DNA of 64,000 bases from NCBI RefSeq assembly GCF_019654955.1, contig NZ_BPEV01000015.1, positions 1 to 64,000 on the forward strand, written 5' to 3'. Source of the DNA: Shewanella sp. KT0246 (lineage in GTDB: Bacteria; Pseudomonadota; Gammaproteobacteria; Enterobacterales; Shewanellaceae). The notes below the pieces were generated by a model. It did no database searches, was not told the DNA's origin, and was given only the letters and a program-made list of their open reading frames with translations. Made by a program: the position numbers and the translations under genes. Below, piece after piece: positions 8,457 to 58,914 of the stretch (position 1 is its first letter; the number at the start of each line of letters is the position of its first letter).

Positions 8457-9269
8457 TTAGTGTCGACTCTCTGTTTTAGTATCGTCCCAGCCAACGGCGA
8501 CTCCGGTGTCATAGCGCAAATCGATGGTTGCTATTGGCTTTTGATTGCGTGTTATTTCAGGGTAAACATTAATAAATCTTTGTATTCTAGACATTTTATC
8601 TTCTCTACCTAGTTCAAGCAGAATGCCGTTATCTAACGTTGCATGCCATGCATGCCTTGGGCTTAAACTTAAACTTGCTAGCTTAAATCCATTAATACTT
8701 AATAAATCAGACAATTGCTGATAACTAGTTAACACTTCAGAAGACATTTCTTCTGGGCCTGAAAGGAGTGGCAAACGCTCGATACTTTCATGAGGTTGCG
8801 CCACAAAAACTTCACCATTAATGTTTAACCAATCATCGCCATTCCAATGAGCTACAGCATGTTGCTCTTGCAAAGTAACCTTAAGCTTTGCAGGCCACTC
8901 TCGTCTTACAGAGGCATGATAAACCCAAGGTAACGCCTCTAATGCTTGCTGCACTTCACCTACATCGGCACTAAAAAAACTACGTTCCATCAATGCCTGC
9001 AAAGCCGCTTGAATTTCAGCATCTGAGGTATAAACTCGCTCACCTTTTATCGCGACAGCATCTATTGGCAATGCATCGGCATCATTAAGCAGTACATTTA
9101 ACTTCAAACCTGCCCAAACTATTGTGAGCAATACCGTCAATAAAAACAGCAAACCTGTATACAAGTACCAATTGACTTCACTCAAATGGCCTTTCAGTTG
9201 GCGAGCTTTATCACTCCACGCCACAGTTAATGCAACTCCAAACTGTACACTGTCACTTTCATTGGGCAA
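8457..9269 (-). CDS. ftsQ: Cell division protein FtsQ
   Basis: FtsQ is the bitopic division protein that bridges early and late divisome components through the FtsB/FtsL complex. This 270-residue frame has a membrane segment (about 36-55), a POTRA domain beginning near VAIKGERVYTSDAEIQAAL, and the FtsQ domain with PWVYHASVRREWPAKLKVTL. The start is uncertain: 9269 is a TTG without a clear ribosome site, and a GTG at 9224 would remove 15 residues. The 103 bp separating it from murC is where many relatives carry ddl; none is present here. Confidence 0.92.
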   Translation of the reverse strand: MPNESDSVQFGVALTVAWSDKARQLKGHLSEVNWYLYTGLLFLLTVLLTIVWAGLKLNVLLNDADALPIDAVAIKGERVYTSDAEIQAALQALMERSFFSADVGEVQQALEALPWVYHASVRREWPAKLKVTLQEQHAVAHWNGDDWLNINGEVFVAQPHESIERLPLLSGPEEMSSEVLTSYQQLSDLLSINGFKLASLSLSPRHAWHATLDNGILLELGREDKMSRIQRFINVYPEITRNQKPIATIDLRYDTGVAVGWDDTKTESRH

Positions 9270-9372
9270 TCCACCATTATATCTAGCATACTGACGGTAT
9301 TAAAGCTTATATTTACAAACAGTTATAATATAAAATTCATTCATCAATTATTAGCATCCGCCAGTTTGACAA

Positions 9373-10815
9373 TTACTTATCGAAGCCTAAATTACTCGAT
9401 GACAATAACTTCGACAATGCACCGATATTACCTGCACCTTGGGTCAGCAATAAGTCACCCTCTTGCAGCACATCTGGCAATACATCAGCTAATAGTTCAG
9501 GTGATGCCACAAAAATCGGGTCGACCTGCCCACGTAATCTAATTGAGCGACACAAGGCTCGACCATCTGCGCCAGGTATAACGCTTTCGCCTGCAGCATA
9601 AACATCTAGCAACAATAGGCCGTCAACTTGCGATAACACTTCAACAAAGTCTTCGTACAAGTCACGTGTTCTACTAAAACGATGTGGTTGATATGCCATA
9701 ACTAAGCGTTTATCAGGCCAACCAGCTCTAGCCGCTTTAATCGTTGCTAATACTTCGCTTGGGTGATGGCCATAATCATCAACCAACATCACCTTGCCAT
9801 TCGGAGTATCAAACTCACCAAGATGTTGGAAACGTCTGCCAATACCCTCAAACTCTGCTAACGCAGCAACGATAGCGTCATCAGCAATATCATCTTCACT
9901 GGCAACAGCAATGGCCGCTAATGCATTTAACACGTTATGCTCACCAGGAAGATTCAATACAATATCTAAATCTTCACGGTTTTTACGGCGAACACTAAAC
10001 TGACTCTGATGTCCCACTTGTTTAAAGTTAAGTGCTTGAACATCAGCAATATCACTAAAGCCATAAGTGACAACTTGTCTGCCCACTCTTGGCATTATCT
10101 CTTGAATGACTTCATCATCGATACACATCACAGCAACGCCGTAAAAAGGCAAGTTATGTAAAAAGTCCACAAAGGTGGTTTTCAACTTTTCAAAATCGCC
10201 ACCGTACGTGTCCATATGATCAGCTTCGATGTTAGTGATAACACTAACCATTGGCTGTAAGTGCAAAAAACTTGCATCGCTCTCATCTGCTTCGGCAATC
10301 AAATAACGACTGGTACCTAAACGTGCGTTGGTACCTGCACTATTTAACAAACCACCAATAACAAACGTAGGATCGCGCTCAGCTTGACCATAAACGCTAG
10401 CAATTAAACTGGTTGTCGTTGTTTTACCGTGAGTACCAGCAATAGCTACACCATGACGATAACGCATCAACTCTGCTAACATTTCAGCACGGCGAACGAT
10501 TGGAATTCGGCGCTCTTTTGCTGCAATAATTTCAGGATTTTCTTTATCAATTGCGGTCGAAACCACGACAACATCAACGTCTGCAACACTTTCAGCCTGA
10601 TGACCAATAATGATCTTCGCACCTAAACTTTCTAATCTTTCGGTAACACTGTTAACAGCGATATCTGAGCCACTGATCTGATAACCTTCGTTAACTAATA
10701 CTTCGGCTATCCCGCCCATACCAGCTCCGCCTATGCCGACGAAATGGATTTTCTTTATCCTTCTCATCTCTGGGATCATGGTGCGTAATTGGGCATACTT
10801 TTCTGTTTTAGTCAT
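9373..10815 (-). CDS. murC: UDP-N-acetylmuramate--L-alanine ligase MurC
   Basis: MurC adds the first amino acid, L-alanine, to UDP-MurNAc in the cytoplasm. The 480-residue protein has the N-terminal UDP-binding Rossmann loop ([17 protein letters not shown]), the ATP-binding [13 protein letters not shown] and the Mur-ligase C-terminal domain ([14 protein letters not shown]). The ATG is preceded by AAAGGA at 5 nt. It starts one base after the murG stop and is probably coupled to it. Confidence 0.98.
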
Positions 10816-10816
10816 T

Positions 10817-11917
10817 TCAATCCTTTCGTGCTAATTCAGCACAAATACTCGCTACACGTTGGGTTGCATCTAACACTGCAACACTTCTGGCTTGTTGCGC
10901 CATCTCTAAAACAACGTGTCTTTCTTCAGCAAAAAGGGTTAACTTCTCGGCTAAATTATCTGCGTTTAATATGGTTTGCGGTAATAAAAATGCCGCACCG
11001 GCTTCTACTAATACTGAAGCGTTTTTTGTTTGATGATCGTCAACCGCATGGGGATATGGCACCAAAATACTGGCTCTACCCACTGCAGCTAATTCAGAAA
11101 CGGTTAATGCTCCTGAGCGACAAACCACAACATCGGCCCAGCGATAAGCGGCTTCCATGTCATCTATAAATTCTGCCACATTGACACTGGCCGCTTGACC
11201 CTTGTCTTGATAGTGACTTTTCACGGTAGGCTCATTTCCTTTACCTACCTGATGCCATACCGTAATCGAGTGTTGTTGGCTAAGTTGCCCTACAACATCA
11301 GGCATCACATCGTTAAATATCTTTGCACCTAAGCTGCCACCCACCACTAATACTTTTAATGCGGTGTCGTCACATACCTTTGCAGTTTGCCCTAACTCGA
11401 TTAACTCTTGTCGAATCGGATTACCCACTACCTCGGAGTTCGTCGCTGGTAAAAAGGTATTCGGAAACGCACATAGCACTTTGCTAGCGATTCTTGATAA
11501 CAACTTATTTGTCATCCCCGGTATCGCATTTTGCTCATGCAATACTAATGGGATGCCTGAAATTCTTGCTGCGACTCCACCTGGACCACTAGCAAAGCCA
11601 CCCATGCCTAAAATTACGTCCGGCTGATATTCATTGATAAAAGCCTTAGCTTGCATGATGGAGCGTAAAATTTTATATGGCGCAGCGAGCTTTCTAATGA
11701 TGCCATTGCCACGCACGCCCTTAATATCAATGAACTCAATATCAAAACCGTGTTGAGGCACTAAACGCGCCTCCATTCTATCTGCTGTACCTAACCAGCG
11801 TACTTGCCAGCCTTTTTTAGCTAGCGCTTTTGCTACAGCTAACGCCGGGAATACATGTCCACCCGTGCCGCCAGCCATCACCAATAATTTAGGTGCATCT
11901 GTCATATTAGGGCTCAT
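10817..11917 (-). CDS. murG: Lipid II synthase MurG
   Basis: MurG is the membrane-associated GT-B glycosyltransferase that moves GlcNAc from UDP-GlcNAc to lipid I, giving lipid II. The 366-residue sequence has [16 protein letters not shown] at the N-terminus, [13 protein letters not shown] in the middle, and the UDP-GlcNAc site [17 protein letters not shown] in the C-terminal half. Its ATG overlaps the ftsW stop as ATGA, with AGGGAG about 8 nt upstream. Confidence 0.98.
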
Positions 11918-13128
11918 TTTTTTACTCTCCCTTGCACCGCTTGTGTCAAACTTAACCGCCTTTCATAATCTATGCGTATCAACAGCATCACCGCTGCAGT
12001 CATTACCCACAAGCTACTGCCGCCATAACTAATAAAAGGTAAAGTCAGTCCCTTTGTCGGCAACATGCCAATACTTGCGCCAACGTTTACAACGGTCTGA
12101 AAACAAATCCAAATCCCGATACCGTAAGCTAAATAACTTTCAAATGGACGCTGAATACTCAAACATAAATTGCCCAGTCGAATCGCTCTAAACGACACAA
12201 AAAACAACACAGTTAATACACAAACAATGCCTACAAAACCTAACTCTTCGCCTATCACTGCAAAGATAAAATCAGTGTGAGCCTCAGGCAGGTAAGACAG
12301 CTTTTGAATACTGTTACCCAAACCTTGACCAAATATATCACCGCGTCCATAAGCCATAAGAGACTGTGTTAACTGATAACCACTACCAAATGGATCTTCC
12401 CACGGGTCTAAAAATGACGTGACCCTTCGCATACGGTAAGGCTCAAACACCACTAAGAATATAAAAGAGCCAACACCAAAAATCATCAAGACTAAAAAGT
12501 CTAAAATTCTTGCCCCAGCAAGGAACAACAAGCTGACTGTACACACAAATAATACAACGACTGTTCCCAAGTCTGGCTGTGCCAAAATCAATAAAGCAAA
12601 CAGCGTAAAGACAATAATAGGCTTAATAAAACCCCTGCTATTTTCTCTAAGCTCACCATGTCGGCGAACTAAATAGCCGGACATATAAATAATAAAAACA
12701 AACTTGGCTATTTCAGCTACTTGGATTCTAACGGGTCCAACAGACAACCACCGTGTTGCACCGTTTACCGTTGTGCCGACCACTAACACGGCAACCAACA
12801 TGAGTAATACCAGCAACACTAAATAAGCGCTGTAACGCTCCCAAAACTTCAACTCTATGTTCAGTACTGCGTAAGCAATAATCCCGCATCCCATTAGATA
12901 TGCCACATGGCGATAAATAAAATGAAACGGGTTCTCTGTCAGCTTTTGAGCTTCTGGCATAGAAGCCGACATCACCATCACAAAACCAAAGGCAATAAGT
13001 CCTACAACTGCTACAAACAAGCTGCGGTCATAAAGCTGATCGCCTGGCGACGTTTCAGATAATATATCTGGCCAAGACCTCTTTAGGACTTGTTGGAATA
13101 AGCTCAGTTGCTGCTCACCCCTCGCCAT
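11914..13128 (-). CDS. ftsW: Peptidoglycan glycosyltransferase FtsW
   Basis: FtsW is the SEDS-family polytopic membrane protein that polymerises lipid II at the septum with its partner FtsI. About ten hydrophobic segments are visible over 404 residues. Motifs include QPDLGTVVVLF and the SEDS signature near the C-terminus, GMLPTKGLTLPFISYGGSS. Either TTG at 13134 or ATG at 13128 could be the start. GGAG lies 4 nt before the TTG and 10 nt before the ATG. Both overlap the end of murD. Confidence 0.95.
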   Translation of the reverse strand: MARGEQQLSLFQQVLKRSWPDILSETSPGDQLYDRSLFVAVVGLIAFGFVMVMSASMPEAQKLTENPFHFIYRHVAYLMGCGIIAYAVLNIELKFWERYSAYLVLLVLLMLVAVLVVGTTVNGATRWLSVGPVRIQVAEIAKFVFIIYMSGYLVRRHGELRENSRGFIKPIIVFTLFALLILAQPDLGTVVVLFVCTVSLLFLAGARILDFLVLMIFGVGSFIFLVVFEPYRMRRVTSFLDPWEDPFGSGYQLTQSLMAYGRGDIFGQGLGNSIQKLSYLPEAHTDFIFAVIGEELGFVGIVCVLTVLFFVSFRAIRLGNLCLSIQRPFESYLAYGIGIWICFQTVVNVGASIGMLPTKGLTLPFISYGGSSLWVMTAAVMLLIRIDYERRLSLTQAVQGRVKK

Positions 13129-14440
13129 CTTCAATCTGCTCCACTAATTGTTTAAAGTGATGACCTCTTTCCATGAAGTTCTTGTACATATCTGTACTGG
13201 CACAAGCTGGAGATAATAAAACGATATCGCCTGAAAAGGTGATTTCAACCGCTTTAGCTACTGCCTCTTCAAGACTGTTAACTGAAATACTATCTGCTTT
13301 TAACGCTGCGATTTTAGGGCCGTCTTTACCAAAGGTAATAACTTGCGTGACATTGCTTAATGAAGATTCCAGCTCTTTAAAGTCTGCGCCTTTACCTTCA
13401 CCACCGGCGATTAAAATCAAATCACCTAAGTGATCACTTAGTCCATTCAATGCAGCAACGGTGGCGCCAACATTGGTTGCTTTAGAATCATTAATATAAG
13501 TGACACCTTGCTTAAGGCCTACCATTTCACATCGGTGCTCTAAACCAACAAAGTTTGATGCAATCTCAATCATGAAGCTCTTATCAATGCCACAAGCATC
13601 TGTTAATGCCATAGCTGCTAACAAGTTAGCTTGGTTATGGCTGCCGATTAAGCTGACTTCATGTAAATTCATGATTTCGCTTTCACCATGCAATATCTTG
13701 CCGTCAGCAATGCCCCACTCATCTCCTTCAGGAACACCTAAACCAAAAGTGTTTTGGTTTGTTGGTTCATCAGGAAACGTCAGCTGATCGTCACGGTTGA
13801 ACATGACAAAACGGCTTTGCTGATACAAACGTAATTTTGCAGCGCGATAGGAATGGATGTCGTGGTACCTATCCATATGGTCTTCGCTTATGTTCAAGCA
13901 AGTGGCAGCGATACAGTTCAAGCTATGGGTTGTTTCTAATTGAAAGCTCGATAGTTCCAAGACAAAGTATTCTGCGTCAGTCGTTAATAAATCCAATACT
14001 GGGATACCAATATTGCCGCCGACAGCAACTTTTTTACCTGCTGCTTCCAATATGTCGTAAACAAGCGTAGTCACAGTGGTTTTACCGTTTGAGCCGGTAA
14101 TTGCAACAACACAAGGCGCTCTATCTGCTACTGCTTGCGCAAACAGCTCCACATCCCCAATAACTTCAATACCCATATCAATCGCAGCGCGAATTTCTGG
14201 AGTATCAACTGCGATGCCTGGGCTTACAATAATTTGTTTCGCTTGCACTAAGTAACGACATACAAATCCGCCTGTAAGCAACTCAACATCAGGAAAATCC
14301 TGCGCTAACGTTTCTTGTCCAGGTGGCGCTCGTCTGCTATCCATCACCAATGGTGTAATACCTTGGGACATCAGATAACGCACAACAGATAAACCTGTTG
14401 CACCTAACCCCAAAACAATATGTGAATAGCTTGATTGCAT
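13115..14440 (-). CDS. murD: UDP-N-acetylmuramoylalanine--D-glutamate ligase MurD
   Basis: MurD adds D-glutamate to UDP-MurNAc-L-Ala. The 441-residue protein begins with a Rossmann-like UDP site (VLGLGATGLSVVRYL), then has the P-loop AITGSNGKTTVTTL and the lysine-bearing central region (NISEDHMDRY). The C-terminal Mur domain contains VLLSPACASTDMYKNFMERG, a diagnostic MurD stretch. It starts 6 bp after mraY ends. Confidence 0.98.
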   Translation of the reverse strand: MQSSYSHIVLGLGATGLSVVRYLMSQGITPLVMDSRRAPPGQETLAQDFPDVELLTGGFVCRYLVQAKQIIVSPGIAVDTPEIRAAIDMGIEVIGDVELFAQAVADRAPCVVAITGSNGKTTVTTLVYDILEAAGKKVAVGGNIGIPVLDLLTTDAEYFVLELSSFQLETTHSLNCIAATCLNISEDHMDRYHDIHSYRAAKLRLYQQSRFVMFNRDDQLTFPDEPTNQNTFGLGVPEGDEWGIADGKILHGESEIMNLHEVSLIGSHNQANLLAAMALTDACGIDKSFMIEIASNFVGLEHRCEMVGLKQGVTYINDSKATNVGATVAALNGLSDHLGDLILIAGGEGKGADFKELESSLSNVTQVITFGKDGPKIAALKADSISVNSLEEAVAKAVEITFSGDIVLLSPACASTDMYKNFMERGHHFKQLVEQIEDGEG

Positions 14441-47898: not shown

Positions 47899-49086
47899 AT
47901 GGGAAAGTTAACCGCAAAGGAAGTTGCAGCAAAATCCAAAGGAGTGCCTTGCCGATTCGCTGATGGTGAAGGTTTATATTTTGTCGTTCCCAAATCCGGC
48001 AAACCATTTTGGATGCTCCGCTACACCGCCAACAAAAAACGCAAAGAGATGACTTTGGCTAAGTACAGTGATCTTTCATTGGCAGATGCTCGCGCAGAAG
48101 CCGCAATTAAAATGAAGCAGTTTCGTGATGGTCTAGATCCTCTCGTTGCCAAGAAACGCGCCGAACAAGCCGAAATTAAAACCGTTGATGATCTGTTTGC
48201 CGATTGGCATTTAGGTAATATCAAAAGACTAAAACATCACGAAATCCCCGAACGTATCTACCGTAAAGACATTGCTCCACATATAGGTAGCTTCAGCGTC
48301 GATAGCGTCACAGCCAGAGACATAAGAGCAGTATTACAAGCCATCGCAGCCACTAACCGCCCAGCAATCGCTAACGATGCTCTGATGTACAGCAAGCAAC
48401 TTTTCAATCACGGCATAAAACTGGATCTGCTTAGCGCAAATCCAGCGAGTGCATTTTCGGTTACGGATGCTGGTGGAGTAGAAAAGAGTAAAGACAGAGC
48501 CTTAACCATCGAAGAGCTCACCCATTTCTTTCATACAGCACGTGACAACAGCGACAGCTTTAGCCGTGATAATTATCTCGCTTGTGCATTGCTGGTGGTA
48601 TTAAGTGTAAGGAAAGGGGAGTTAACAGAAGCGTTATGGCAGGAATTTGATTTGGAAGAGGCTAAATGGAGCCTTCCTAAAGATCGCAGTAAGTCCGGTG
48701 TCGGCATTGTTATACCGTTACCTGAAACAGTCTTAGAGTGGCTTAAAGAGCTTCAGATCAGAGCATGTGGATCAGACTATGTTTTCCCTAGTCGCAGAAG
48801 AAGCAAGCGGCCCTGTATGGGCAAAGATACGCTTAATCGCGCTATTACTAAGTTGTTTGGTCATGAGGCAGGCAAGAAGAAACAACCAGCTAACCAAATG
48901 GGTGACATGGCACATTTCACCGTACATGATTTAAGGCGCACTTGCAGAAGTCTATTAGCGGCACAAGGAACGCCCGGCCATGTCGCCGAGCGCTGTTTGA
49001 ATCATAAATTGAAGGTGTTGAAGGGATTTATGATCGGTATGACTATTTTGATTAGCGAAGTGATGCCTTATACATACTCTCTGTAA
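47899..49086 (+). pseudogene. P4-type tyrosine integrase, frameshifted before the catalytic tyrosine
   Basis: This belongs to the P4/CP4 family of site-specific recombinases. It has the DUF4102 arm-binding domain (about residues 1-85), core-binding domain (about 95-185) and catalytic domain. R238 (SVRKGE), H343/R346 (HDLRR) and H369 (CLNHK) are present. After LNHKLK the frame changes at about 49012. The expected GVEGIYDRYDYFD, carrying the catalytic tyrosine, is found in another frame at 49014-49052 and is followed at once by TAG. The product as read ends in unrelated residues (KGFMIGMTILISEV) and should not recombine. A base deletion is the simplest cause; a sequencing error is possible. Confidence 0.85.
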
Positions 49087-49121
49087 ATTTGAAGACCATT
49101 ATTAATAAATAGGTTGTGCAT

Positions 49122-49424
49122 ATGAAATTATTGAATACATATGAAGACAAAGATGAAGCTGAAAAAGCAGAAAGTTTAATTTTAGGGGATAAAAGGTTAG
49201 CGAGTGAACGGGATGGTACAGAATTAATTTATAATTTATTTGGTGAACCAAATTGGAGTAATTTATATAAGTTAGGGATGTTTAACTTACCGCTTTTAAA
49301 GAAATTACTTGAGCAGAGAGGTTCATCCGAAGGATATGACGAGGCTAAGCATAAAGAGGTCATATCAATGCTTAGGCATGCTGCTAATACGTTTGAATTA
49401 GAGATACCTAAGCATTGGTTTTAA
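49122..49424 (+). CDS. Hypothetical protein of the island
   Basis: I do not recognise this 100-residue acidic, soluble protein. It has no signal peptide or membrane segment, contains GEPNWSNLYKLGMFNLPLLK and ends ELEIPKHWF. The ATG at 49122 is preferred over a GTG at 49116. AGG lies 8 nt upstream. It follows the integrase gene by 35 bp, and its stop overlaps the stop of the converging methyltransferase gene by 4 bp. It could be cargo with an immunity or accessory role, but nothing shows this. Confidence 0.55.
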   Translation: MKLLNTYEDKDEAEKAESLILGDKRLASERDGTELIYNLFGEPNWSNLYKLGMFNLPLLKKLLEQRGSSEGYDEAKHKEVISMLRHAANTFELEIPKHWF

Positions 49425-50782
49425 TTTAAATCAGGTTTTTTAATTGTAACTATAGTTTCTCTAAGCAAATCTTTAAGATAGGGGTATTGTTTCATTTGTT
49501 GGCCTGATGTATTTGCTTTTCTGCATTTGAGTATTTCAATTACCTCATATCCCAGTTCATTTGCAATGAAAGCGAAAATTGTATCGGTTGGAATTGCGAC
49601 ACCAACATATGCGCTTTGGTCAATGACAATATGCATATGCCCACCAGCTTTGAGGAGGTGCATTCCTTTGTTAATTACTTCTCCCATATCTGCAAAGTAG
49701 GCTCTTAGCATGTTTGGAACAAGTCTTGTTCTCCCATCTCGTTTGCCTGTTAGTTTTTCCTTTTGTGGTATTTTTTTCCATAATTCATCACAAAGAAGTT
49801 CAACGATAGGCAGTTTTGAAATTAGGTCTTCTTTGTAACTTAGGCGGAAATTCCTTATAAGAAGCTTTCTTTTTTCTTTAATTTCATTTGCTTTACTCCA
49901 TTCACCAAAAATTAATTCCATTTTATATGATTCAAAATAATCAAAAGAATTAGCATAAGGAGGGGAAAAAATAATAGACCCAACTTTTTGTTTATTGAGA
50001 GCCTGCTTTATATCTGGCTTATCCAAATTTATAGCGCTGGTTAATATTGCTTTTGATAAATTATTTTGAAGGTGAGGAGTTATTTGGAAGTCTTGAAGCA
50101 TTATTTCTATTTGGTTAGAAAATGTAGAGAAGCAATCAACAATTTTGGTTTCTCGTGTTGCTAGTCCATTCCCATCTTTTTTACGGTTGGAGCAATCTTC
50201 GATAATAGAAAGTAACGCCATAAAGAAAAAATCAAAATATCTCTCTGTGCATAATTTTTTTATAGAGGATTTAATCGCTATCAGTTGATTTAAGTTACTG
50301 TAATTAAAATATTTTGAGATGCTTTCGTCATATTCATTGGCTGTTACTTCCATATCTGTAGCTACCAATAAAATATTTTCAGTATATTTTTTAAGATCAA
50401 TGATTTCCTGTGTTGTAAATTTATATCCTTTAACTTTTGTCGATAGAACTGCATATGGATTAACATCCAGCCCTAGTGAAGCTATATTTAATTCATTACA
50501 AGCGACCATCGTTGATCCTGAACCACACATGGGATCAATTACGTAATCAGACTTATCGACTGGAAATCGCTTTAATAGCTCTTTAACTAGGTCTCCAGCA
50601 TACCCTTCCCTATATCTCATCCAGCGGTGGTAAGGTTGTTTTTTTGATATAGATGTATTAACTAAACTTGAAAAATAACCCGTCTCATCTCGGCCATGAA
50701 ATTGTGATTCCATATTTTCTAGTGTTTGTTTTAGAATGGGAGAGTTGTACGCATCTTTTAGCGATAGCCATGAGTATGTCAT
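49421..50782 (-). CDS. DNA methyltransferase, SPPY type (second of two)
   Basis: This 453-residue SAM-dependent DNA methyltransferase has motif I DPMCGSGST at 83-91 and the catalytic motif IV SPPY at 273-276, about 180 residues later. SPPY is typical of N4-cytosine enzymes, though some N6-adenine enzymes have it. The intervening helical insert may be target recognition. The C-terminal part (AGGHMHIVIDQSAYVGVAIP) completes the Rossmann fold. Its ATG overlaps the preceding methyltransferase stop by one base. It is the last gene of the restriction operon and should modify the host's own sites. Confidence 0.85.
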   Translation of the reverse strand: MTYSWLSLKDAYNSPILKQTLENMESQFHGRDETGYFSSLVNTSISKKQPYHRWMRYREGYAGDLVKELLKRFPVDKSDYVIDPMCGSGSTMVACNELNIASLGLDVNPYAVLSTKVKGYKFTTQEIIDLKKYTENILLVATDMEVTANEYDESISKYFNYSNLNQLIAIKSSIKKLCTERYFDFFFMALLSIIEDCSNRKKDGNGLATRETKIVDCFSTFSNQIEIMLQDFQITPHLQNNLSKAILTSAINLDKPDIKQALNKQKVGSIIFSPPYANSFDYFESYKMELIFGEWSKANEIKEKRKLLIRNFRLSYKEDLISKLPIVELLCDELWKKIPQKEKLTGKRDGRTRLVPNMLRAYFADMGEVINKGMHLLKAGGHMHIVIDQSAYVGVAIPTDTIFAFIANELGYEVIEILKCRKANTSGQQMKQYPYLKDLLRETIVTIKKPDLN

Positions 50783-52671
50783 TATTTATTTCCCCGTACT
50801 TGCCAGCGATTACCATCTCTATTTAGAGTTGCTTGAGTGTCGAGAAATTTTTCTATGAGTTCATGCGAAAACTCTTCATTTATTTCAGCAGTACTTTTAC
50901 CTTCTGTAACTTGCTTAATCAGGCAAAGTGTTGAAATAGCAAAGAGTTTTATGTAGAACTCTCCTAAGGTGAATGTTTCCTGGTTATTTTTTATTTCCTT
51001 AAGAGTCCGCTCTAAACATTGTGAAAATGAATCCTGAACCATACTGAAATCTATAGTTTTATCTGTTTTCTTAAATGAGTATATGAAGTCACCTTGGGGT
51101 GTTCCATCGAAACGTAAATGTGCAGTGTCTCGATATGCATCTATACCTTCTTGGTAAAAAATAGCACTAGGTTCAATGTAAAATCCAGCGTCAATTGCGG
51201 CCTTTATTACTGAATGCCATGCTCGTATATCTTTGTTATTAAATGTGAATGCCATTATTCCATTAGGTTTAAGCACTCGGTAGCAGTTCTTAAATACTTT
51301 GTTCAATAATAAATAATAATCATTAAAATCTTTTGAGTACTCCTCTGATTTTGTTCTTCTATGGACAACCGCCTCTGCTTTCAGTAGTTTATCGTGAGAT
51401 GTAAATGGTGACTTTTTATTAAGCCAAACATCCCAAAATCTGCATAGCTCACCATATTGAACATTACTGCCATATGGAGGATCTGTGAGGACAAAATCAA
51501 CAGAATTTTCCGGTAAGCTAACTTCTGATGAATCCCCACAGTTGATGGAATAATCTGCCTCTTGATTAAGAACATCTTGCAGGTTGAGTGAGTACTTAGT
51601 ATCAGTGAATCTAGAATTCCTATCTTTTATTGATGAATTGAAAGCTTTAACTCTATTGGAAAAATACTCAATAGGATTCACCTCTATGAATTGGTTAGGT
51701 GTCCAATAGGCATGCTTAGACCACGCAACAGGTCTACCATCCATCCATGAGGAGGTGGAAAAATTCATGTTATTTGTATATCTGAGTAATGAGCTAATTA
51801 AAAATAAAAGGTATTGGTACTCATCTTCTTTTAGCTCGTCTTTGATACGTTCGATACAAGAGAAATAAAGCCCACAAGTAATAAGGTTTCTCTTTGTAAA
51901 AAGGTCAGATAATTTATGAAAACCTTTTCGGTGGAGGCAATCCTCTTGCTGTCTATCCCAGTCTTCAGGTATTTCATCATCTGGGATATCAATGTTAAAT
52001 TTCTCAACTAACTTGCTCAAATTCTCTACGAAATATTTTGCCTTTTCAATATCTGCTTGTTCCGGTTGTTTGCTATCTTGCGTACCGCAACTAGAGCATT
52101 TGAAACGAATATTTAAAATTTCACTGTTAATTCTAGGGCTATTAACTGCTCTGAATTCATGTTTACAATGATTGCAAAGGTAAACCCCATTCTTTGGTTT
52201 TCCAGTTTTACCTATAGCTTTTGATTTATGGTCAATACAGGTTGAAACTGAGCATGAAGGGCAGTGGACATTGTAAGCGTGTTCGTACCATCTTACGTGA
52301 GAGTCTTCTTGGCATTCAGTGCAACTAGTTGAGTAAAATTCTCCCAATTTTTCGATAACTTCTTTATTGATCTTATTAGAAAGAATTTTAAAGCGCTCTT
52401 CATTAATTTCAGATACTTGATTAAGCTGAATAAAAGAAGCTATTGGATTAATATCAGAGATGATAATCCTTCTTTTCTCTGTAAGCCCTTCCACTAATGT
52501 CACTCCGCCTCCACCAAAGGGGTCAAAAATCACATCACCTTCCTGAGAATAATGTTTTATAAGCTCTCGGAATACATTGTGTGGCCGGCGCGCAAAGTAT
52601 TTGTGTGTCTTATATATAGGGGTGTGGCCTAAAGATTTTATTGTTTTGTTAAAATATGAAACGTTATTCAT
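50782..52671 (-). CDS. DNA methyltransferase, DPPY type with zinc-ribbon insert (first of two)
   Basis: This 629-residue DNA methyltransferase has motif I DPFGGGGVT (50-58) near the N-terminus and motif IV DPPY at 397-400, suited to N6-adenine or N4-cytosine. Between them is an insert with four CxxC pairs (C117/C120, C137/C140, C166/C169, C192/C195), which looks like two zinc ribbons. The N-terminal YKTHKYFARRPHNVFRELI stretch resembles DUF1156-type methylases. It overlaps the nuclease-helicase gene by 4 bp (ATGA) and the next methyltransferase by 1 bp, so all three are coupled. Confidence 0.85.
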   Translation of the reverse strand: MNNVSYFNKTIKSLGHTPIYKTHKYFARRPHNVFRELIKHYSQEGDVIFDPFGGGGVTLVEGLTEKRRIIISDINPIASFIQLNQVSEINEERFKILSNKINKEVIEKLGEFYSTSCTECQEDSHVRWYEHAYNVHCPSCSVSTCIDHKSKAIGKTGKPKNGVYLCNHCKHEFRAVNSPRINSEILNIRFKCSSCGTQDSKQPEQADIEKAKYFVENLSKLVEKFNIDIPDDEIPEDWDRQQEDCLHRKGFHKLSDLFTKRNLITCGLYFSCIERIKDELKEDEYQYLLFLISSLLRYTNNMNFSTSSWMDGRPVAWSKHAYWTPNQFIEVNPIEYFSNRVKAFNSSIKDRNSRFTDTKYSLNLQDVLNQEADYSINCGDSSEVSLPENSVDFVLTDPPYGSNVQYGELCRFWDVWLNKKSPFTSHDKLLKAEAVVHRRTKSEEYSKDFNDYYLLLNKVFKNCYRVLKPNGIMAFTFNNKDIRAWHSVIKAAIDAGFYIEPSAIFYQEGIDAYRDTAHLRFDGTPQGDFIYSFKKTDKTIDFSMVQDSFSQCLERTLKEIKNNQETFTLGEFYIKLFAISTLCLIKQVTEGKSTAEINEEFSHELIEKFLDTQATLNRDGNRWQVRGNK

Positions 52672-55487
52672 TCATTAATCCAAATTTTTTCGCCGTACAG
52701 TTCAGGGGATAAGAATGCACCAGACCTAGATAATATTTCGCTAATTTTCTCTTCACCGCCATCTTTCAATAGAATACACTTATTTGAAAAAGTAAATATT
52801 TCATCGAAGATAATTAAGTCATTCTTTAAGTAGCGGTATTGGTTTCCAACAGTAGTCCTATCAGTCCAGACATTTGCAAAGGAAAAGTTGCAATTATACG
52901 CTTCATTTAACTCATTTAGAATGCCTTGCTTGTTAGCTTCGCTTGTGAGGTGAATGTTTGGGTAATTTTGGTTTATTTCTTGAGCGTTAGATATTGCTTT
53001 CTCAATGTTAGGTTTATCATCATCATCAAACTCAATAGAGTAAATCCCATAAACAAATTGAACGAAGTTAATTGACTTCAGCCTTTTAAGAAACAGAAAA
53101 ACTTCTCTATATGGGAATAGTGTAGATCCATCTTTGTCCTGAGAAAATAACATCATTTGATTTTTAAACATGTCGTTGAAATCATGCTGGTTACTTTTTA
53201 TTTTTTCACCTATTCCAGTGAGTTGGAATTGAGCTTTTGCTACTTTTTTAATAATCCCTAATCTTTCACAATGAGAAACATTATTATTACTAGGTCTATT
53301 ATTTTTTGTATAAATTATTAAGTCTTTTCTAGTATAAGTTTGATTGGGTAGCATCAAGTTTAAGGTAGGTTCTACCAGATTTTCTAAACATACGCTTGCG
53401 GTGAAATCCACAGCTGTTTTAAATACCCGAGTTATGCTTCCCTTACGCTCTGATTTTCCTAACTGTCCTCCAACACCAATCGTTCCTGTTGGATCTTTGT
53501 TTACATCTGCGATTCTAATGGCTAAGGATTCTTCAAATTGGGATATATCAATTTCTTTCGGGAGTATTACATCAATTTTCCCTAAGTTCCCCTTGGACTG
53601 CTTTCGGCCTCTTACTTTGTCTGAATTTATAGAATCAATCCACTCTGATAACTCTTGATCTTGATCTCGTAACGCTTGAATTAAATTAAATAGTGATTCA
53701 AAGCCTTGCCCGGTACAAATGTCAGATGATTCATCATCAATTAGTACAGGAATTATTATGTAAGCGGTCTTATTTTCCTGTCCAAATTTTTGCCTAAGAG
53801 CTCGACCTATAGCTTGCACAATATCTATAAGAGAGCCTTTAGGGTCTGCAAAGAATACGGCATCAATTAACGGGATATCTATCCCTTCCGTAAGGCAGCG
53901 GACATTGGATATCACTCCTATGTCTGAGGCTTCAAAATCATTAATTATTTCACACCGAGCTTGTGAACTCATCTGCCCATTAATATGGCTTATTGCGATA
54001 TCATCTTTTGGATCATTACTTATAAGCTCTTCATTTAGTTTTTTTGAAAATTCTACAGCTTCACTTATTTTTGAATGGAAAGTAATTACCTTTCTCACGC
54101 CAAGGTCCAATATTGTTTTCTTTAATATGGTTCGTTTGAACAAATTATGTATGGCTTCTGTCTGCTGCTCATCTGAAAGTTCATCTTTGATGTATTGGTT
54201 ATTTGAAATTATTCTTGAAAGGTCGGAATTGGTTATACCCGAAAAAACTATTCGATAGTCTGAAATTATTTTTTTATGAATTGCTTCACCAAATGTAAGT
54301 CTACTGAAGGTAGGCCCATATACATTTGCATCATTCATGGAGAAAACTGCTTTCCCTAGTTCATTAGCGGCGTTACTGAGTCTTGGTCGTATTAAGCGTT
54401 CGGTAGCTGTTAAAAATAATTTTTTTCTTGTGGGGATTAATGCATCTAAAAGAGCTTTTGAAAATTTTGAGTCAGCTCCAATTCCAGCGGTTCGGTGAGC
54501 TTCATCATACACTGCTAAATCAAATGTCCAGTCATCTAATGACTCTATAGCCGTCCCAATTACTTCTGCGGACTGGTAAGTAGAGAAGATATATACGCAT
54601 TCTTCTTGGTTTTTTAATGAAAGAAAATTAGCAATTTCTTTAGGGTTTGTAGTGACTGGAATATCAATGTCATCCAGGTCAATATTATTTTTATCTATAT
54701 CAGAATCTACTGACTGATCACTACAGACGCATAGATAAGAAAAAGTGCTTGATGATTCAAAGGACCATGCTTCAAGTGTTTGTCTTACAAGTTGAAGGCT
54801 TGGAGCAAAGAATATAACCCTTTTAGCTTTAACTGCTTCTGCTGACCATATTGAAATAAGAGTTTTACCAATTCCACAGGCTGCTATCACTTTGCCTTTA
54901 TTGCTTGTAGAAAAACCCTCTCGGATATCTTCTACGATTTTTTCTTGATAGTCTCTAGGTACTTTTTTATCTATTACTATTTTTTTGTTCTTTGTAGTAA
55001 AAAAATCATGAAGTTGAGTAAAAAAGTGCTCATCTAGCACTTCAAATTTGTCAGACAATAATGATAGGTGGCCTGATTTTTTATTTGCTACTTTTGTTAG
55101 TTTTTTACTGTTAGAAATTATCAACCGATGATCTGCATATTCTGCCTCAGCCCAAAATGTTGATAATTCAGTTGCTGTTAATGCGGCCCTTTTTGATCTG
55201 AACTTTGCTTGCCACGCTATATATTCGCCTTTGTTATTTATATATACCCCATCAACACCATTATCTGTATTTTCAAGTTTAAGTTTGTTTATAACTTTAG
55301 CGGGAAAGCTCTTCCCGTCTACTATTGGGCAATAGATTTCATCAATTGCGTGAAGCTTAGAGAAATACTTTAAATAGAAATATGTAAAATACTCAAAAAG
55401 ATCCCCTTTTTGTTTATTACTATCAATTGCTTCAAGGTGCTTTTCAATGGCAACCCAAGAAGAATTATTAAAGGCTGTTAAATTCAT
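52668..55487 (-). CDS. Mrr-type nuclease / SF2 helicase fusion (restriction subunit)
   Basis: This 939-residue protein has two parts. Residues 1-150 look like a PD-(D/E)xK Mrr-type nuclease (E32, GVDG with D79, WQAK with Q93 and K95). Residues 175-600 are a DEAH-family translocase: Walker A ACGIGKT (203-209), YDEAHR (326-331), TAT (359-361) and QAIGRALRQ near 580. The C-terminal ~300 residues are unassigned and might recognise DNA or contact the methyltransferases. The nuclease-translocase order matches the front half of type ISP enzymes, but here methylation is on separate proteins. Role inferred: ATP-dependent restriction of unmodified DNA. Confidence 0.82.
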   Translation of the reverse strand: MNLTAFNNSSWVAIEKHLEAIDSNKQKGDLFEYFTYFYLKYFSKLHAIDEIYCPIVDGKSFPAKVINKLKLENTDNGVDGVYINNKGEYIAWQAKFRSKRAALTATELSTFWAEAEYADHRLIISNSKKLTKVANKKSGHLSLLSDKFEVLDEHFFTQLHDFFTTKNKKIVIDKKVPRDYQEKIVEDIREGFSTSNKGKVIAACGIGKTLISIWSAEAVKAKRVIFFAPSLQLVRQTLEAWSFESSSTFSYLCVCSDQSVDSDIDKNNIDLDDIDIPVTTNPKEIANFLSLKNQEECVYIFSTYQSAEVIGTAIESLDDWTFDLAVYDEAHRTAGIGADSKFSKALLDALIPTRKKLFLTATERLIRPRLSNAANELGKAVFSMNDANVYGPTFSRLTFGEAIHKKIISDYRIVFSGITNSDLSRIISNNQYIKDELSDEQQTEAIHNLFKRTILKKTILDLGVRKVITFHSKISEAVEFSKKLNEELISNDPKDDIAISHINGQMSSQARCEIINDFEASDIGVISNVRCLTEGIDIPLIDAVFFADPKGSLIDIVQAIGRALRQKFGQENKTAYIIIPVLIDDESSDICTGQGFESLFNLIQALRDQDQELSEWIDSINSDKVRGRKQSKGNLGKIDVILPKEIDISQFEESLAIRIADVNKDPTGTIGVGGQLGKSERKGSITRVFKTAVDFTASVCLENLVEPTLNLMLPNQTYTRKDLIIYTKNNRPSNNNVSHCERLGIIKKVAKAQFQLTGIGEKIKSNQHDFNDMFKNQMMLFSQDKDGSTLFPYREVFLFLKRLKSINFVQFVYGIYSIEFDDDDKPNIEKAISNAQEINQNYPNIHLTSEANKQGILNELNEAYNCNFSFANVWTDRTTVGNQYRYLKNDLIIFDEIFTFSNKCILLKDGGEEKISEILSRSGAFLSPELYGEKIWINE

Positions 55488-55533
55488 AATTAGTATTACC
55501 CCCCAAATTTAAATTTTGATGATGAGAAATGTT

Positions 55534-55800
55534 CTATTTATCAGAGTTGTGTTGGTTGAGTGTTTGTTCTGATTGGATGTGATTTTTTAATGAGTCAAGG
55601 AAGTCAAGTAGGTCTATGTCTAAGCCATCAACGATGGCCTCGAGTGATGATAGGGTTATGTTTCTTACCCCTCTTTCAACGCCAGAAATATATGTCCTGT
55701 CTAGGTTTGCTTTTTCTGCTAGTTCTTCTTGGCTGATTTGATTAGCATTTCGGAGTGTTTTCAATGTTTGCGAAACACCTAAGACAAGTTTTTTGCTCAT
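55534..55800 (-). CDS. Restriction-modification controller (C) protein, XRE family
   Basis: This 88-residue Cro/C1-type helix-turn-helix regulator (LRNANQISQEELAEKANLDR, TYISGVERGVRNITL) has the size and pattern of C proteins, which bind their own operator and time expression of restriction genes. It is the first gene of the operon, 46 bp before the nuclease-helicase gene. A C-box-like operator lies 35-61 bp upstream of its ATG, which strongly supports this role over that of a generic repressor. Confidence 0.85.
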   Translation of the reverse strand: MSKKLVLGVSQTLKTLRNANQISQEELAEKANLDRTYISGVERGVRNITLSSLEAIVDGLDIDLLDFLDSLKNHIQSEQTLNQHNSDK

Positions 55801-55834
55801 ATTTACAACCTAAATTCTCAAGATGCCTTTGTGA

Positions 55835-55861
55835 GACGTATAAGTCTACGGACTATTAGTC
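55835..55861 (-). promoter_or_regulatory. C-box operator of the restriction operon
   Basis: On the minus strand: GACTAATAGTC, then CGTA, then GACTTATACGTC. The first unit matches the C-box GACT-3-AGTC perfectly. The 4-bp gap and the second GACT half-site follow the known tandem arrangement, with a degenerate last half-site. It stands directly before the C-protein gene. Confidence 0.75.
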
Positions 55862-55893
55862 ACATTTATGATGGGTGGTTTTTTCTGGTGGGT

Positions 55894-56021: not shown

Positions 56022-56058
56022 CATAAAGACAAGGAACCAGTAGCCCCTTGTCTTTATG
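56022..56058 (-). terminator. Terminator after the alpA-like gene
   Basis: A perfect 13-bp stem (56022-56034 with 56046-56058) with an 11-nt loop lies 7 bp after the alpA-like stop. On the minus strand the tail is only weakly T-rich (CCCTGTTTTAATG), so termination may be partial. Confidence 0.65.
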
Positions 56059-56064
56059 TCTTAT

Positions 56065-56268
56065 TTATCCGGCAATCTGTAACTCTGCGTCATCACGTTG
56101 TTTAATCTTATCCAATATCCACTCTTGCACTTCACCTTCTACCCAAGCTACTGATTTGCCTATTTGTGTAACAGGCTTTGGGAATAATCCTTCTTTCATA
56201 TATTTGTAAATGCTCGAACGGCCTAATGCTGTTTGCTTCATTACTTCTGCTAGCTTAATTAATCGCAT
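56065..56268 (-). CDS. AlpA-family phage/island regulator
   Basis: AlpA-type proteins are small MerR-like helix-turn-helix factors that activate or assist excision of P4/CP4-type islands. This 67-residue protein, MRLIKLAEVMKQTALGRSSI, continues with YKYMKEGLFPKPVTQIGKS and VAWVEGEVQEWI, a textbook AlpA pattern. The ATG at 56268 follows AAGGA by 8 nt and gives the standard family start; an upstream ATG at 56292 is in frame but less likely. The start region lies in an inverted repeat. Confidence 0.9.
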   Translation of the reverse strand: MRLIKLAEVMKQTALGRSSIYKYMKEGLFPKPVTQIGKSVAWVEGEVQEWILDKIKQRDDAELQIAG

Positions 56269-56301
56269 GGTTTGAATCCTTATTGTGTTCATTCAAACCA
56301 T
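56267..56301 (-). repeat. Inverted repeat over the alpA-like start
   Basis: Perfect 11-bp arms (56267-56277 and 56291-56301, ATGGTTTGAAT and its complement) flank a 13-bp spacer. In the minus-strand transcript the AAGG of the ribosome site falls in the loop, and the lower arm reaches the first base of the start codon neighbourhood. It could be an operator or a translational hairpin. Confidence 0.7.
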
Positions 56302-56408
56302 TGGTTGAGCGAGTAAAAATTCACCGAAAGTAATTCGATTCCAGATTATTTCAGATATATATCACTTATGTGCATAAGCCCACTAACGGGTTACATAAGG
56401 AGTTTAAT

Positions 56409-56792
56409 ATGCACACAAAATCTACCCACAGTTACGCATTGTGCAGACCAATGACAGAACACCAGATACTTGAGAAAGCCGCAGAGATCATTGCTGATAA
56501 ATTCATTAAAGGAGATGCATTTAGTACCGCTAAAGCAACCAAAGAGTATTTAACTTTTAAACTAGGAAAATATGAACGGGAAGTGTTTGCGGTAATGCTG
56601 TTGAATACTCAGCATCAACTGATTGAATACCGGGAGTTATTCTTCGGTTCAATTGATAGTGCAAGCATATATCCGCGAGAGGTGGTTAAAGCGGTACTTG
56701 AGGTTAACGCAAGTGCGGTAATCTTTGCGCATAACCACCCGTCAGATAATGCCAATTGGGAAATACAAAGCATTATCTGTCACCCGCTTTGA
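56409..56792 (+). pseudogene. Truncated RadC-like JAB protein of the island
   Basis: The first ~115 codons match the RadC JAB domain found on many islands, including KYEREVFAVMLLNTQHQLIE, SIDSASIYPREVVKAVLEVN and AVIFAHNHPS. After HNHPS the sequence leaves the family and ends in DNANWEIQSIICHPL, so the rest of the metal site is missing. AAGGAG lies 6 nt before the ATG. The break coincides with the start of hipA-like sequence, indicating an internal deletion. Confidence 0.85.
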
Positions 56793-57426
56793 TCGCCTCT
56801 ATGACGCTAAGCATCATAGAGTGATGCGTCGTCACCAAATCGATGCACGTCAGGCTTTAGGCTATTCCGTTGCAAGAAAATATGAGCGACATCTTGGTAG
56901 TGGTCGTGATGAGCAAGATATTCGTGAAGGAGTGAGTCTAGTAAAGCTGTTTAGCATCGCTGAGCACTGTGCTAATCCTGCTCAAGCCAAGTTCGACATG
57001 CTTCGTTGGACAATCTTTAACTTGCTCGTATGCAATGCTGATTCACATGGTAAAAACTATTCATTCTATGTCACCGCTAAAGGCCTTGAAGCGACGCCAT
57101 GGTATGATCTTGTCAACGTGAAAATGTACCCAGACTTTGATCAAGAACTGGCGATGGCAATTGGTGATGAATTTGAAGCCAGTAAGATCCACGCCTATCA
57201 ATTAATGACATTGGCAGAAGAATGTGGAATTAAGCCAAACATACTTGAATTAACCCTCAAGCAACTAGCAAAAGCCATCCTCGATAATCTAGATGAAGTG
57301 GCAAAACAAGCTGGTGAGCTTACGGAAGCAGAATCTGAGTATGCTGAACGATATAAACAGTCCATTAAAACACGATGTGAATACTATCTTGCTCAAGCTG
57401 AAGAAATGAAACATATCAAGTTGTAG
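56755..57426 (+). pseudogene. HipA-like kinase, C-terminal fragment
   Basis: From about SVTRFDRLYD the frame reads as the C-terminal half of a HipA-type Ser/Thr kinase: MRRHQIDARQALGYSVARKY, LLVCNADSHGKNYSFY with the catalytic NADSHGKN loop, and WYDLVNVKMYP. The N-terminal half and any HipB antitoxin are missing, so no intact toxin is expected. The frame opens at 56725, but those first codons belong to the radC remnant. It is a relic joined to the radC fragment by deletion. Confidence 0.85.
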
Positions 57427-57615: not shown

Positions 57616-58914
57616 TTATACGTTTAGGATTTCTTCTGCTTGCCTTTGTTTTAATCGCGATGGATAGTCTTTATCCATCGAGACTAAAAAGTCATTAACA
57701 TCCCCAAACTCTTCACTCTCATAAACAATTTTAGCGACTTCTTCTGCCACTCTGCGACCATGAATCAAGATGATGGGATATTTATCCTCAATCACTTCCC
57801 GTTGTACCGAATCAGAGAAATAACTAGTCGTCACATAGACACCTAGCCAGCCGCGCTTTAGGCGAGCGACGGTTCGAGCAATATGGTTGCCGCCAGTAGG
57901 CGATTTTAATGCTTCACACTTTGCTTGGCCTAATACAATTAACTCAACTTTGGAAAAGCCACTGCCTAATATGACTTTACCAATAAAGTCAGCACCACCG
58001 TCACTCGAGCCTTGTGTGACCCAACCTTTTTGATAGATGCCATGTTCCCGATCAATAACGCGGGCTGCAATAACTTCTGCTAATGCCTCAAATCGGTGCT
58101 TTTTGTTAGCGTAGTAATTATAAATTTCATTGAGGACACGCTCAGAATCAGATCCCGGAATCGGTTTTTGATTAATAGTTTTTTCAAGACTTAACTTAGA
58201 CACTCTGCGACGAAGTTTATTAAGTGAGTTGCTGCCCTCAGTTAACCATTTTCGCCAACTACTAGGGGCTGTGTTATTGGTTAAATTGAGTGAAAAACCT
58301 ACCTTACGCCGGTTGTTAATCCAATCCCATTCAAACGCTTCGTGCTCATTCGCTATGCAAAGCACGGTAAAATCAAAAGCGTAATTAGTAAATGTTCGTT
58401 CTAGCTTGTTATCCCATTGCGTCACTAACTCAACAGAATTAATAATCCCCAGTCCATGAAACTGCGGATAACCTTTAGCGACACCATTAACGGTTGCACG
58501 TTTAAAAAACAATATTGGCGGGGTTAATGATCTTTGCTCAACACAATGGGAGTGCGATAAACGAAAAGCTTCCAGTAACGCTTTATTACCTAATGCTGTA
58601 GCCGGATCTTTACCGGGTTCTTTGTTGTCACCAAAATAGCGAATATGACCATTATCCACATCATAGAAATCTTCCCATGGTGTTTCTGCTGAACCTTTCT
58701 TATTAGGACTACTAGAAATGAGAATAGCAGGACGAACTGATTCACCAGAGCAGTTTTTTATTTTAGCGGATGGGTTAATGCCCTTCTCCAGTTGCAATCT
58801 TTTTACTTCTGGAGACTTAGTTAAAAAATGAAAGTTAAGATACCCACCTTCATAAAGATTCTCTGCACATGCAGGCTTTTTATATCTAAGAACATCACCA
58901 ATTTGAATTTTCAT
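57616..58914 (-). CDS. AspBHI-like modification-dependent restriction endonuclease
   Basis: This 432-residue protein resembles the AspBHI type of enzymes that cut DNA bearing modified cytosine. The N-terminal ~250 residues contain RPAILISSSPNKKG, TPWEDFYDVDNGHIRYFGDN and LTPPILFF, typical of the SRA-like recognition domain. The C-terminal Mrr-type nuclease has FEALAEVIAARV (E276), SDGGADFIGK (D309) and VLGQAKCE (Q330, K332), an intact catalytic set. It lies 73 bp outside the second yicC end and is transcribed alone. It was probably acquired separately from the island, or with a neighbouring insertion. Confidence 0.82.
   Translation of the reverse strand: MKIQIGDVLRYKKPACAENLYEGGYLNFHFLTKSPEVKRLQLEKGINPSAKIKNCSGESVRPAILISSSPNKKGSAETPWEDFYDVDNGHIRYFGDNKEPGKDPATALGNKALLEAFRLSHSHCVEQRSLTPPILFFKRATVNGVAKGYPQFHGLGIINSVELVTQWDNKLERTFTNYAFDFTVLCIANEHEAFEWDWINNRRKVGFSLNLTNNTAPSSWRKWLTEGSNSLNKLRRRVSKLSLEKTINQKPIPGSDSERVLNEIYNYYANKKHRFEALAEVIAARVIDREHGIYQKGWVTQGSSDGGADFIGKVILGSGFSKVELIVLGQAKCEALKSPTGGNHIARTVARLKRGWLGVYVTTSYFSDSVQREVIEDKYPIILIHGRRVAEEVAKIVYESEEFGDVNDFLVSMDKDYPSRLKQRQAEEILNV

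Follow-up and report, generated by a model that had tools for sequence, protein, structure and literature searches.

A putative Shewanella restriction-modification operon with a Type ISP-like nuclease-translocase, a predicted Type IIS-like recognition domain and two methyltransferases

Gene content of the operon and architecture of the restriction subunit

The first 64,000 nucleotides of contig NZ_BPEV01000015.1 of Shewanella sp. KT0246 (assembly GCF_019654955.1), hereafter the window, contain a putative restriction-modification (R-M) operon of four genes (Table 1). They encode a small controller (C) protein, a restriction subunit with nuclease and helicase-like parts (hereafter the helicase), and two DNA amino-methyltransferases, M1 and M2. 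A gap of 46 bp separates the C gene from the helicase gene, whereas the helicase and M1 genes overlap by 4 bp and M1 and M2 by 1 bp. A first-pass annotation of the window had described four co-directional genes, the last three overlapping by 1-4 bp, encoding a C protein, an Mrr-helicase and methyltransferases with DPPY and SPPY motifs; all four open reading frames (ORFs) were found on the minus strand, and the families were matched by HTH_3, PADLOC models, Mrr_cat_2, ResIII, Helicase_C, and N6_N4_Mtase. The arrangement is beyond chance, as relatives of the three large proteins with 49-64% identity occur in identical order at four other loci (L027, L030, L034, and L039).

Table 1. Positions of the operon genes, the parts of the restriction subunit, and the predicted operators in the window.
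Feature	Position	Strand	Details
C (controller) gene	55534-55800	minus	88 aa helix-turn-helix (HTH) protein; HTH_3 E 9e-14; PADLOC Control_protein models, best E 1.3e-17
Restriction subunit (helicase) gene	52668-55487	minus	939 aa nuclease-translocase-recognition protein (recognition part predicted)
Mrr-type nuclease part	54978-55487	minus	about aa 1-170; Mrr_cat_2 E 1.6e-6 at aa 68-137; LlaBIII match starts at aa 22
Superfamily 2 (SF2) helicase-like ATPase	53775-54977	minus	about aa 171-571; ResIII E 1.5e-18; Helicase_C E 1.1e-15
Linker	53436-53774	minus	about aa 572-684; first part homologous to LlaGI/LlaBIII just past the ATPase
Type IIS/IIT-like DNA-recognition domain (predicted)	52671-53435	minus	aa 685-939, 255 residues; AlphaFold2 (AF2) model, Foldseek, VIA-align
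M1 DNA amino-methyltransferase gene	50782-52671	minus	629 aa, DPPY; N6_N4_Mtase E 4.7e-23; cysteines of a possible zinc ribbon
M2 DNA amino-methyltransferase gene	49421-50782	minus	453 aa, SPPY; N6_N4_Mtase E 1.3e-10; PADLOC MTase_II E 2.2e-62
C-box-like operator OL (predicted)	55848-55864	minus	TGTGACTAATAGTCCGT; from sequence; ends 47 bp 5' of the C start codon
Possible second operator OR	55835-55846	minus	GACTTATACGTC; from sequence; imperfect

The front half of the restriction subunit is of the Type ISP kind. Conservation was assessed on full-length copies only (19 helicases, 28 M1, and 26 M2), and all 19 helicases had invariant nuclease residues D79, Q93, and K95 together with the ATPase motifs GKT, DE(A/S)H, TAT, and QxxGRxxR. 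The window helicase matched LlaBIII over residues 28-661 of the latter (E 1e-63), the family profile of the helicase matched LlaBIII 10-707 (E 4.7e-116), and a profile of the C-terminal region matched the LlaGI chain at 441-542 (E 2.2e-8); homology to LlaGI/LlaBIII stops near aa 660. The LlaBIII match confirms the nuclease-translocase order of Type ISP enzymes that had been read from the sequence at first pass. The reported absence of a methyltransferase from this chain also stands, since the methyltransferases are separate genes and the LlaGI match stops a short way past the ATPase.

The C-terminal 368 residues were modelled with AF2 from the alignment of 19 sequences, giving a mean predicted local distance difference test (pLDDT) of 83.7, with blocks of 81-97 from about aa 692 onward. 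In a Foldseek search of the PDB, ranks 1-12 were taken entirely by Nt.BspD6I and the BpuJI recognition domain (E 4e-4 to 4e-2), and the first unrelated structure followed at rank 13 with E 1.1. VIA-align superposed the model on residues 3-299 of Nt.BspD6I with Z 16.5 (238-240 residues, root-mean-square deviation 3.6-3.7) and on the BpuJI recognition domain with Z 11.7. The match to FokI residues 9-374 (Z 7.8) is unconvincing alone, because an unrelated regulator scored Z 7.6 over 70 residues. Additionally, two of the 19 relatives (L046 and L051) matched the first third of a 591-aa PADLOC model of Type II restriction endonucleases (E 4.9e-7 and 1.9e-6). On this model, aa 685-939 of the restriction subunit are predicted to have the recognition-domain fold of Type IIS/IIT enzymes, contrary to the first-pass annotation, which had seen no target-recognition part in this protein. 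Its idea that one of the methyltransferases may read DNA for the nuclease also becomes less likely, because such a fold is predicted in the motor itself.

With the Type ISP-like homology ending at about aa 660 and a predicted Type IIS fold following, the methyltransferase and target-recognition domain (TRD) half of a Type ISP enzyme looks replaced by a reader of the Type IIS type. Given the predicted fold, recognition of the asymmetric site is probably a task of the motor itself, and each of the two methyltransferases would guard one strand. We consider it likely that the operon encodes an ATP-dependent R-M system in which a nuclease-translocase of Type ISP is combined with a Type IIS reader and two strand-specific methyltransferases, here under a C protein.

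Two methyltransferases and their linkage to the restriction subunit

Judged from their sequences, M1 and M2 are both probably active enzymes, because the signature residues are invariant while other positions of motif I vary. In M1, C137, C140, C166, and DPPY as well as the D and glycines of motif I were identical in 28/28 copies, and in M2 the same applied to SPPY and to the D, P, and glycines of motif I (26/26). Motif I precedes motif IV in both proteins, and their profiles cross-match weakly, at about 30-46 bits. The DPPY and SPPY motifs reported at first pass were recovered, but the description of the two enzymes as unrelated does not agree with the common motif order and the cross-matches; M1 and M2 look distantly related. 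In one lineage (L031 and its duplicate L044), they are fused as a chain of 1128 aa, for which the model had a mean pLDDT of 86 and a predicted template modelling score (pTM) of 0.59. Fold searches with this model returned only folds common to methyltransferases at large, Dam, Trm11, and RsmH among numerous others, and gave no clue to the target base, whether 6mA or 4mC.

Type IIT enzymes are generally accompanied by two methyltransferases, one per strand and sometimes joined, and AlwI has two methyltransferases in one chain (PMC4081073), while MhoVII is a fused methyltransferase pair acting at GATG/CATC (PMC12898733). By analogy, these pairs are the closest precedent for M1-M2. The two methyltransferase genes stand apart from the nuclease gene and would plausibly serve the two strands of an asymmetric site, as proposed at first pass. 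An extra N-terminal excisionase-like HTH was also observed on M1 of L031 (6647-6835; HTH_17 E 1.2e-5, just under the cut-off), and a similar one, judged by eye, on M1 of L032 and L035; the N-terminal HTH of such M1 proteins is perhaps autoregulatory.

Relatives were collected by scans with an M1 alignment, which yielded seven loci from viral contigs and 26 from a collection of genomes of 84,980 species; as two short peptide patterns were used, the number of loci is a lower bound. Together with the window, and after removal of the duplicates L040 (= L030) and L044 (= L031; same profile scores and ORF lengths), 32 distinct loci were obtained. L029 and L027 are the same contig, and contigs from later scans (L068/L089, L072/L086, L091, and L092) were left out of the 32. 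According to the profile map, in which some genes are broken or cut by contig ends, M2 follows M1 in 31/32 loci, the exception being L061 with a truncated M1. The helicase stands beside M1-M2 in 25 of the 32, some of them cut or broken (L050, L053, L056, L062, and L064 among them). Among the seven loci without it, five (L032, L042, L047, L048, and L057) end within M2 or at most about 400 bp past it, L063 keeps a 3' remnant, and L061 has none. Thus, the three genes for the motor, M1, and M2 travel together as a unit.

The first-pass annotation had proposed looking for the same four-gene set in other genomes; the motor-M1-M2 core was found again, with varying gene order and, in the few loci examined, other regulators. 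Gene order in the 25 loci is helicase-M1-M2 in seven, M1-M2-helicase in five, and convergent in 13. An order with the nuclease first is therefore not a fixed feature, which weakens the earlier worry that it would be odd for the timing of modification.

The core is rare, yet widely scattered over bacteria and archaea. By record title, the hosts include Bacteroidota, Bartonella, many Clostridia, Gastranaerophilales, Cloacimonadota, and a Thermoguttaceae bacterium, as well as the archaea Methanobrevibacter, a Poseidoniaceae archaeon, and another euryarchaeote; many records are metagenome bins. Some copies have phage surroundings, with transposase, terminase, and portal genes at L033, a phage-type DNA polymerase at L032 and L035, and endolysin and tail genes at L027. 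Nearer to the host, M1 was seen in strain KT0246 alone, that is in 1/129 genomes of the genus (E up to 1e-20), 1/369 of the class, and 1/398 of the phylum (both E up to 1e-60). The helicase had matches in 12/394 genomes of the order and was covered over its whole length solely in the host's own. No single place in plasmid or phage records covered 80% of the helicase, with partial matches in 723 plasmid and 16 phage records, and megablast, which detects near-identical DNA only, gave no match in E. coli genomes. Scans of viral contigs with single window proteins retrieved no relative of M1 or the helicase and one of M2; alignments were needed.

The linkage was also examined from the other two genes. 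A scan of viral contigs with helicase profiles yielded 68 loci, nine of which carry the recognition domain (L029, L084-L090, and L092). M1 and M2 both adjoin the helicase in seven of these nine; at L089 the contig runs out after M2, and L092 is truncated by the end of its contig. An additional helicase (L091) is cut before the position of the domain. Among the 58 loci without the domain, M1 or M2 was found in none (0/58) in the flanks examined, which were short in a few cases. A helicase profile match was present in 57 of the 58, and 37 of these belong to ORFs 1538-1797 aa long, as large as Type ISP enzymes. From the M2 side, 20 loci were obtained, and all nine with an M2 score >450 have M1, the helicase, or both. 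Distance matrices of 19 systems correlated for M1-M2 (r 0.92), helicase-M1 (r 0.70), and helicase-M2 (r 0.65), and 0/2000 shuffles reached any of these values. The counts from the helicase side suggest that reader and methyltransferases change together. The helicase-methyltransferase correlations are below that of M1-M2, so partners may be exchanged.

In the remaining 11/20 M2-side loci, the M2-like genes are divergent, with domain scores of 108-346, and neither M1 nor the helicase was found in the flanks examined; two of these loci lie at a contig edge. M2's wider family therefore serves elsewhere. Such loci would suit a reading with two overlapping modules, in which the system consists of the restriction subunit with one methyltransferase, while the second methyltransferase is carried along as a passenger and has a motif of its own, as would the distant M1 relatives that adjoin DUF2357 and ATPase genes on plasmids. 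We regard this as quite improbable, given that M2 comes after M1 at nearly every locus, that the two are fused in one lineage, and that their distances correlate so closely.

The same close M1-M2 correlation could also be expected of a Type I/III-like complex, in which M1, M2, or an M1-M2 dimer brings the restriction subunit to DNA and the C-terminal domain is a docking module. About 347 residues in M1 and 190 in M2 separate motif I from motif IV, which gives room for DNA-reading parts, and HTH-type folds can bind protein too. Nevertheless, the fold match spans 238 residues, takes in complete recognition domains from enzymes whose DNA reading needs no methyltransferase, and lies far above the unrelated structures; moreover, one lineage has M1 fused to M2, and fusion with the restriction subunit occurs in 0/25 loci. 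This alternative is thus unlikely, although less so than the two-module one.

Several observations weigh against the reading of the operon as a self-reading ATP-dependent system with two strand-specific methyltransferases. The fold match was obtained with a predicted model at 10-15% identity; Foldseek TM-scores were 0.32-0.44 by query length, with about 113 residues of the query outside the domain, and the window's own C-terminus had no recognition-family match in Pfam or PADLOC. The domain arrangement in the 1128-aa fusion model is uncertain at its pTM. The test from the helicase side is not fully independent, as its profiles derive from systems that the M1 search had delivered, and 6/9 domain-bearing contigs were already known from that search; of the three newly found, one has both methyltransferases, one has M2, and one is cut. 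The distance correlations are uncorrected for common descent and weaker between motor and methyltransferases than between M1 and M2. The divergent M2-like genes of the other 11 loci belong here too, as does the imperfect second C-box. Finally, a helicase without the recognition domain (11133-13142) abuts M2 at L064, next to M1-M2. On the other side, L063 keeps M1-M2 beside a helicase reduced to its recognition-domain end (7367-7960), a loss that a host could survive, which we count for the favoured reading; L063 and L064 are both partial losses that leave the methyltransferases.

Comparison with known restriction systems

Judged by the features tested, the operon is a full member of neither Type ISP nor Type IIS/IIT. 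LlaGI and LlaBIII, of Type ISP, share the N-terminal Mrr nuclease, the SF2 ATPase, and the following stretch in the same order and are homologous over about 660 residues. In contrast, the chain described here lacks a methyltransferase and a TRD and has a predicted Type IIS-like reader instead, with the two methyltransferases encoded separately. Type IIS/IIT enzymes are not known to have an ATP-driven motor, whereas the SF2 motifs are present in every helicase aligned here. BspD6I/BstNBI, BpuJI, FokI, and AlwI resemble the operon in the fold of the recognition domain, as predicted on the model, and in having two methyltransferases, sometimes in one chain. In those enzymes, the recognition domain stands at the front of the chain and the cleavage domain at its end (PMC4081073); in the present subunit, the predicted reader is at the C-terminal end and follows the Mrr nuclease and the translocase-type ATPase.

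Other classes were compared in the same way. In Type III Res subunits, the helicase comes first and the nuclease stands at the C-terminus, an order not found here, with the nuclease match at aa 68-137 and the ATPase after it. Membership in the group of CglI and NgoAVII was rejected because no phospholipase D (PLD) nuclease, B3-like, or Z1 family was among the Pfam matches of the operon proteins. CglI resembles the proposed system in that its restriction depends on nucleoside triphosphates, is directed at an asymmetric site, and involves a helicase-like ATPase; it has separate R (PLD nuclease and B3-like domain) and H (Z1) subunits (PMC5737866). LlaJI combines two methyltransferases, nucleotide-binding restriction machinery, an asymmetric site, and four co-directional genes (PMC1459862), and is thus similar in its methyltransferase number and gene layout. 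It differs in its subunit with a McrB-like GTPase domain, its separate nuclease subunit, and its 5-methylcytosine methyltransferases; LlaJI/McrBC membership was rejected, as no McrB-like GTPase family was among the Pfam and PADLOC matches listed for the operon proteins.

The BREX-related Type-1 BR system has a DUF499 ATPase, a Swi2/Snf2 helicase with a C-terminal nuclease, and one methyltransferase (PMC12839542). It shares with the operon the combination of a helicase-nuclease and an N6 methyltransferase, there of the DUF1156/PglX kind and distantly similar to M1; no BrxC, DUF499 ATPase, or PglZ was found among nine proteins scanned in and around the operon, and BREX/BR membership was rejected. 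The Type IV enzyme SauUSI likewise lacks a methyltransferase domain of its own; it acts on modified DNA and is not known to have accompanying methyltransferases. The other likeness is its ATP-dependent endonuclease activity (PMC7913695).

Three further arrangements were noted during the scans. On a Natranaerobius plasmid (L021), a Type ISP-like motor (7947-11093, 3147 bp) and a 'type ISP restriction/modification enzyme' (11074-12360) are encoded by separate overlapping genes, another split of the Type ISP plan. Distant M1 relatives at L024 (8031-9416) and L025 (7770-9377) lie near DUF2357 and ATPase genes, at L025 also near a cytosine methyltransferase; these loci are possibly McrBC- or LlaJI-like systems. 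At L075-L079, divergent M2-like genes are followed by a second ORF that resembles a methyltransferase and is weakly matched by the profiles of M1 and M2, while the helicase had no match there; perhaps this is another two-methyltransferase system. The first-pass annotation had called the operon unusual, and we agree: no description of the gene set was found in the open-access literature searched, among the titles and abstract openings listed and in passages of the papers cited here.

Control, genomic surroundings, and proposed mode of action

The C protein recognized at first pass is a small HTH controller whose gene lies upstream (5') of the restriction gene, and predicted C-box-like sites were found just upstream of the C gene itself, two features of C-protein-controlled R-M systems. 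The sequence TGTGACTAATAGTCCGT lies directly 5' of the C gene, followed by GACTTATACGTC. The 17-base OL occurs as a single copy in the 4.85-Mb genome at <=1 mismatch, and the backwards control gave 0; its core GACTNNNAGTC is unremarkable by itself, being expected 0.48 times in the window. The operator of C.Esp1396I has GAC/GTC half-sites, a TATA spacer, and TG outside them, and its OL oligo begins ATGTGACTTATAGTC (PMC3758141), which the OL described here resembles. The half-sites of OR sit one base further apart, so this site would be weaker than OL. A promoter scan returned 13 sites against 26.6 in shuffles, fewer than by chance, and was not used. A terminator-like hairpin of 17 pairs was observed at 56022-56058 (minus strand), between the AlpA-like gene and the C operator.

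The regulator varies while the core stays, as far as the few loci examined allow to say; the survey covered some upstream genes only (10 proteins in one scan, one in another). WYL-domain proteins stand upstream of the helicase in L027 and L034, an HTH_17 protein is the neighbour in L040, an HTH_3 protein lies ahead of M1 in L055, and an M78-peptidase-domain protein with an HTH protein lies near the core in L035.

Judging by its neighbouring genes, the operon appears to be located in a mobile island that has decayed. The surroundings comprise an integrase (47899-49086, plus strand) whose Phage_integrase match stops at position 157/172, a RadC fragment (56370-56792, plus), a HipA_C fragment (56725-57426, plus), and an AlpA-like gene (56065-56292). 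A 102-aa ORF (49116-49424, plus) without a family match above the cut-off is convergent with M2 and overlaps its end by 4 bp. About 1.8 kb off the operon, a restriction gene of the AspBHI kind was identified (57616-58914, minus; RE_AspBHI_N E 8.5e-33; PADLOC methyl-directed mREase_II E 5.5e-152). The marks of M1 and M2 are presumably not its target, because this gene stands beside two methyltransferases.

With such degraded neighbours, the operon itself might be a decayed or split Type ISP enzyme without present restriction activity. However, all operon genes are open and the core catalytic residues are invariant among the relatives. The C-terminus has another predicted fold rather than a Type ISP methyltransferase-TRD, and M1 and M2 match methyltransferase models other than the gamma class to which Type ISP methyltransferases belong (PMC4872093). 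We consider this explanation highly improbable, more so than either of the other alternatives.

In the mode of action that we propose for a self-reading ATP-dependent system, the recognition domain (aa 685-939) would bind an unmodified asymmetric site, and ATP hydrolysis would free the restriction subunit from the site and drive its translocation. As in LlaGI, the nuclease would cut once motors run into each other or come to a halt. M1 would modify one strand and M2 the other, so that each replicated site would keep a mark on one strand and the host would remain safe. In this host, the C protein acting on the C-box operator may time the expression of the operon.

Type ISP enzymes modify one strand, and the head-to-head preference of Type ISP and Type III enzymes has been ascribed to this one-strand methylation (PMC5737866). 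With both strands marked, no fully unmethylated site would arise after replication, and the head-to-head rule would therefore not be needed. Whether the operon represents a separate class, namely a self-reading, self-propelled nuclease at a short asymmetric site that is balanced by two strand-specific methyltransferases and cuts sites in any orientation, is a proposal for which we see even chances. The system would make it testable whether the head-to-head rule of translocating restriction enzymes stems from one-strand methylation, as proposed for Type ISP and Type III (PMC5737866). The operon may moreover be an example from nature of a translocating nuclease that is guided by a Type IIS-type reader, and it suggests that the Type ISP motor is a module able to take up other readers.

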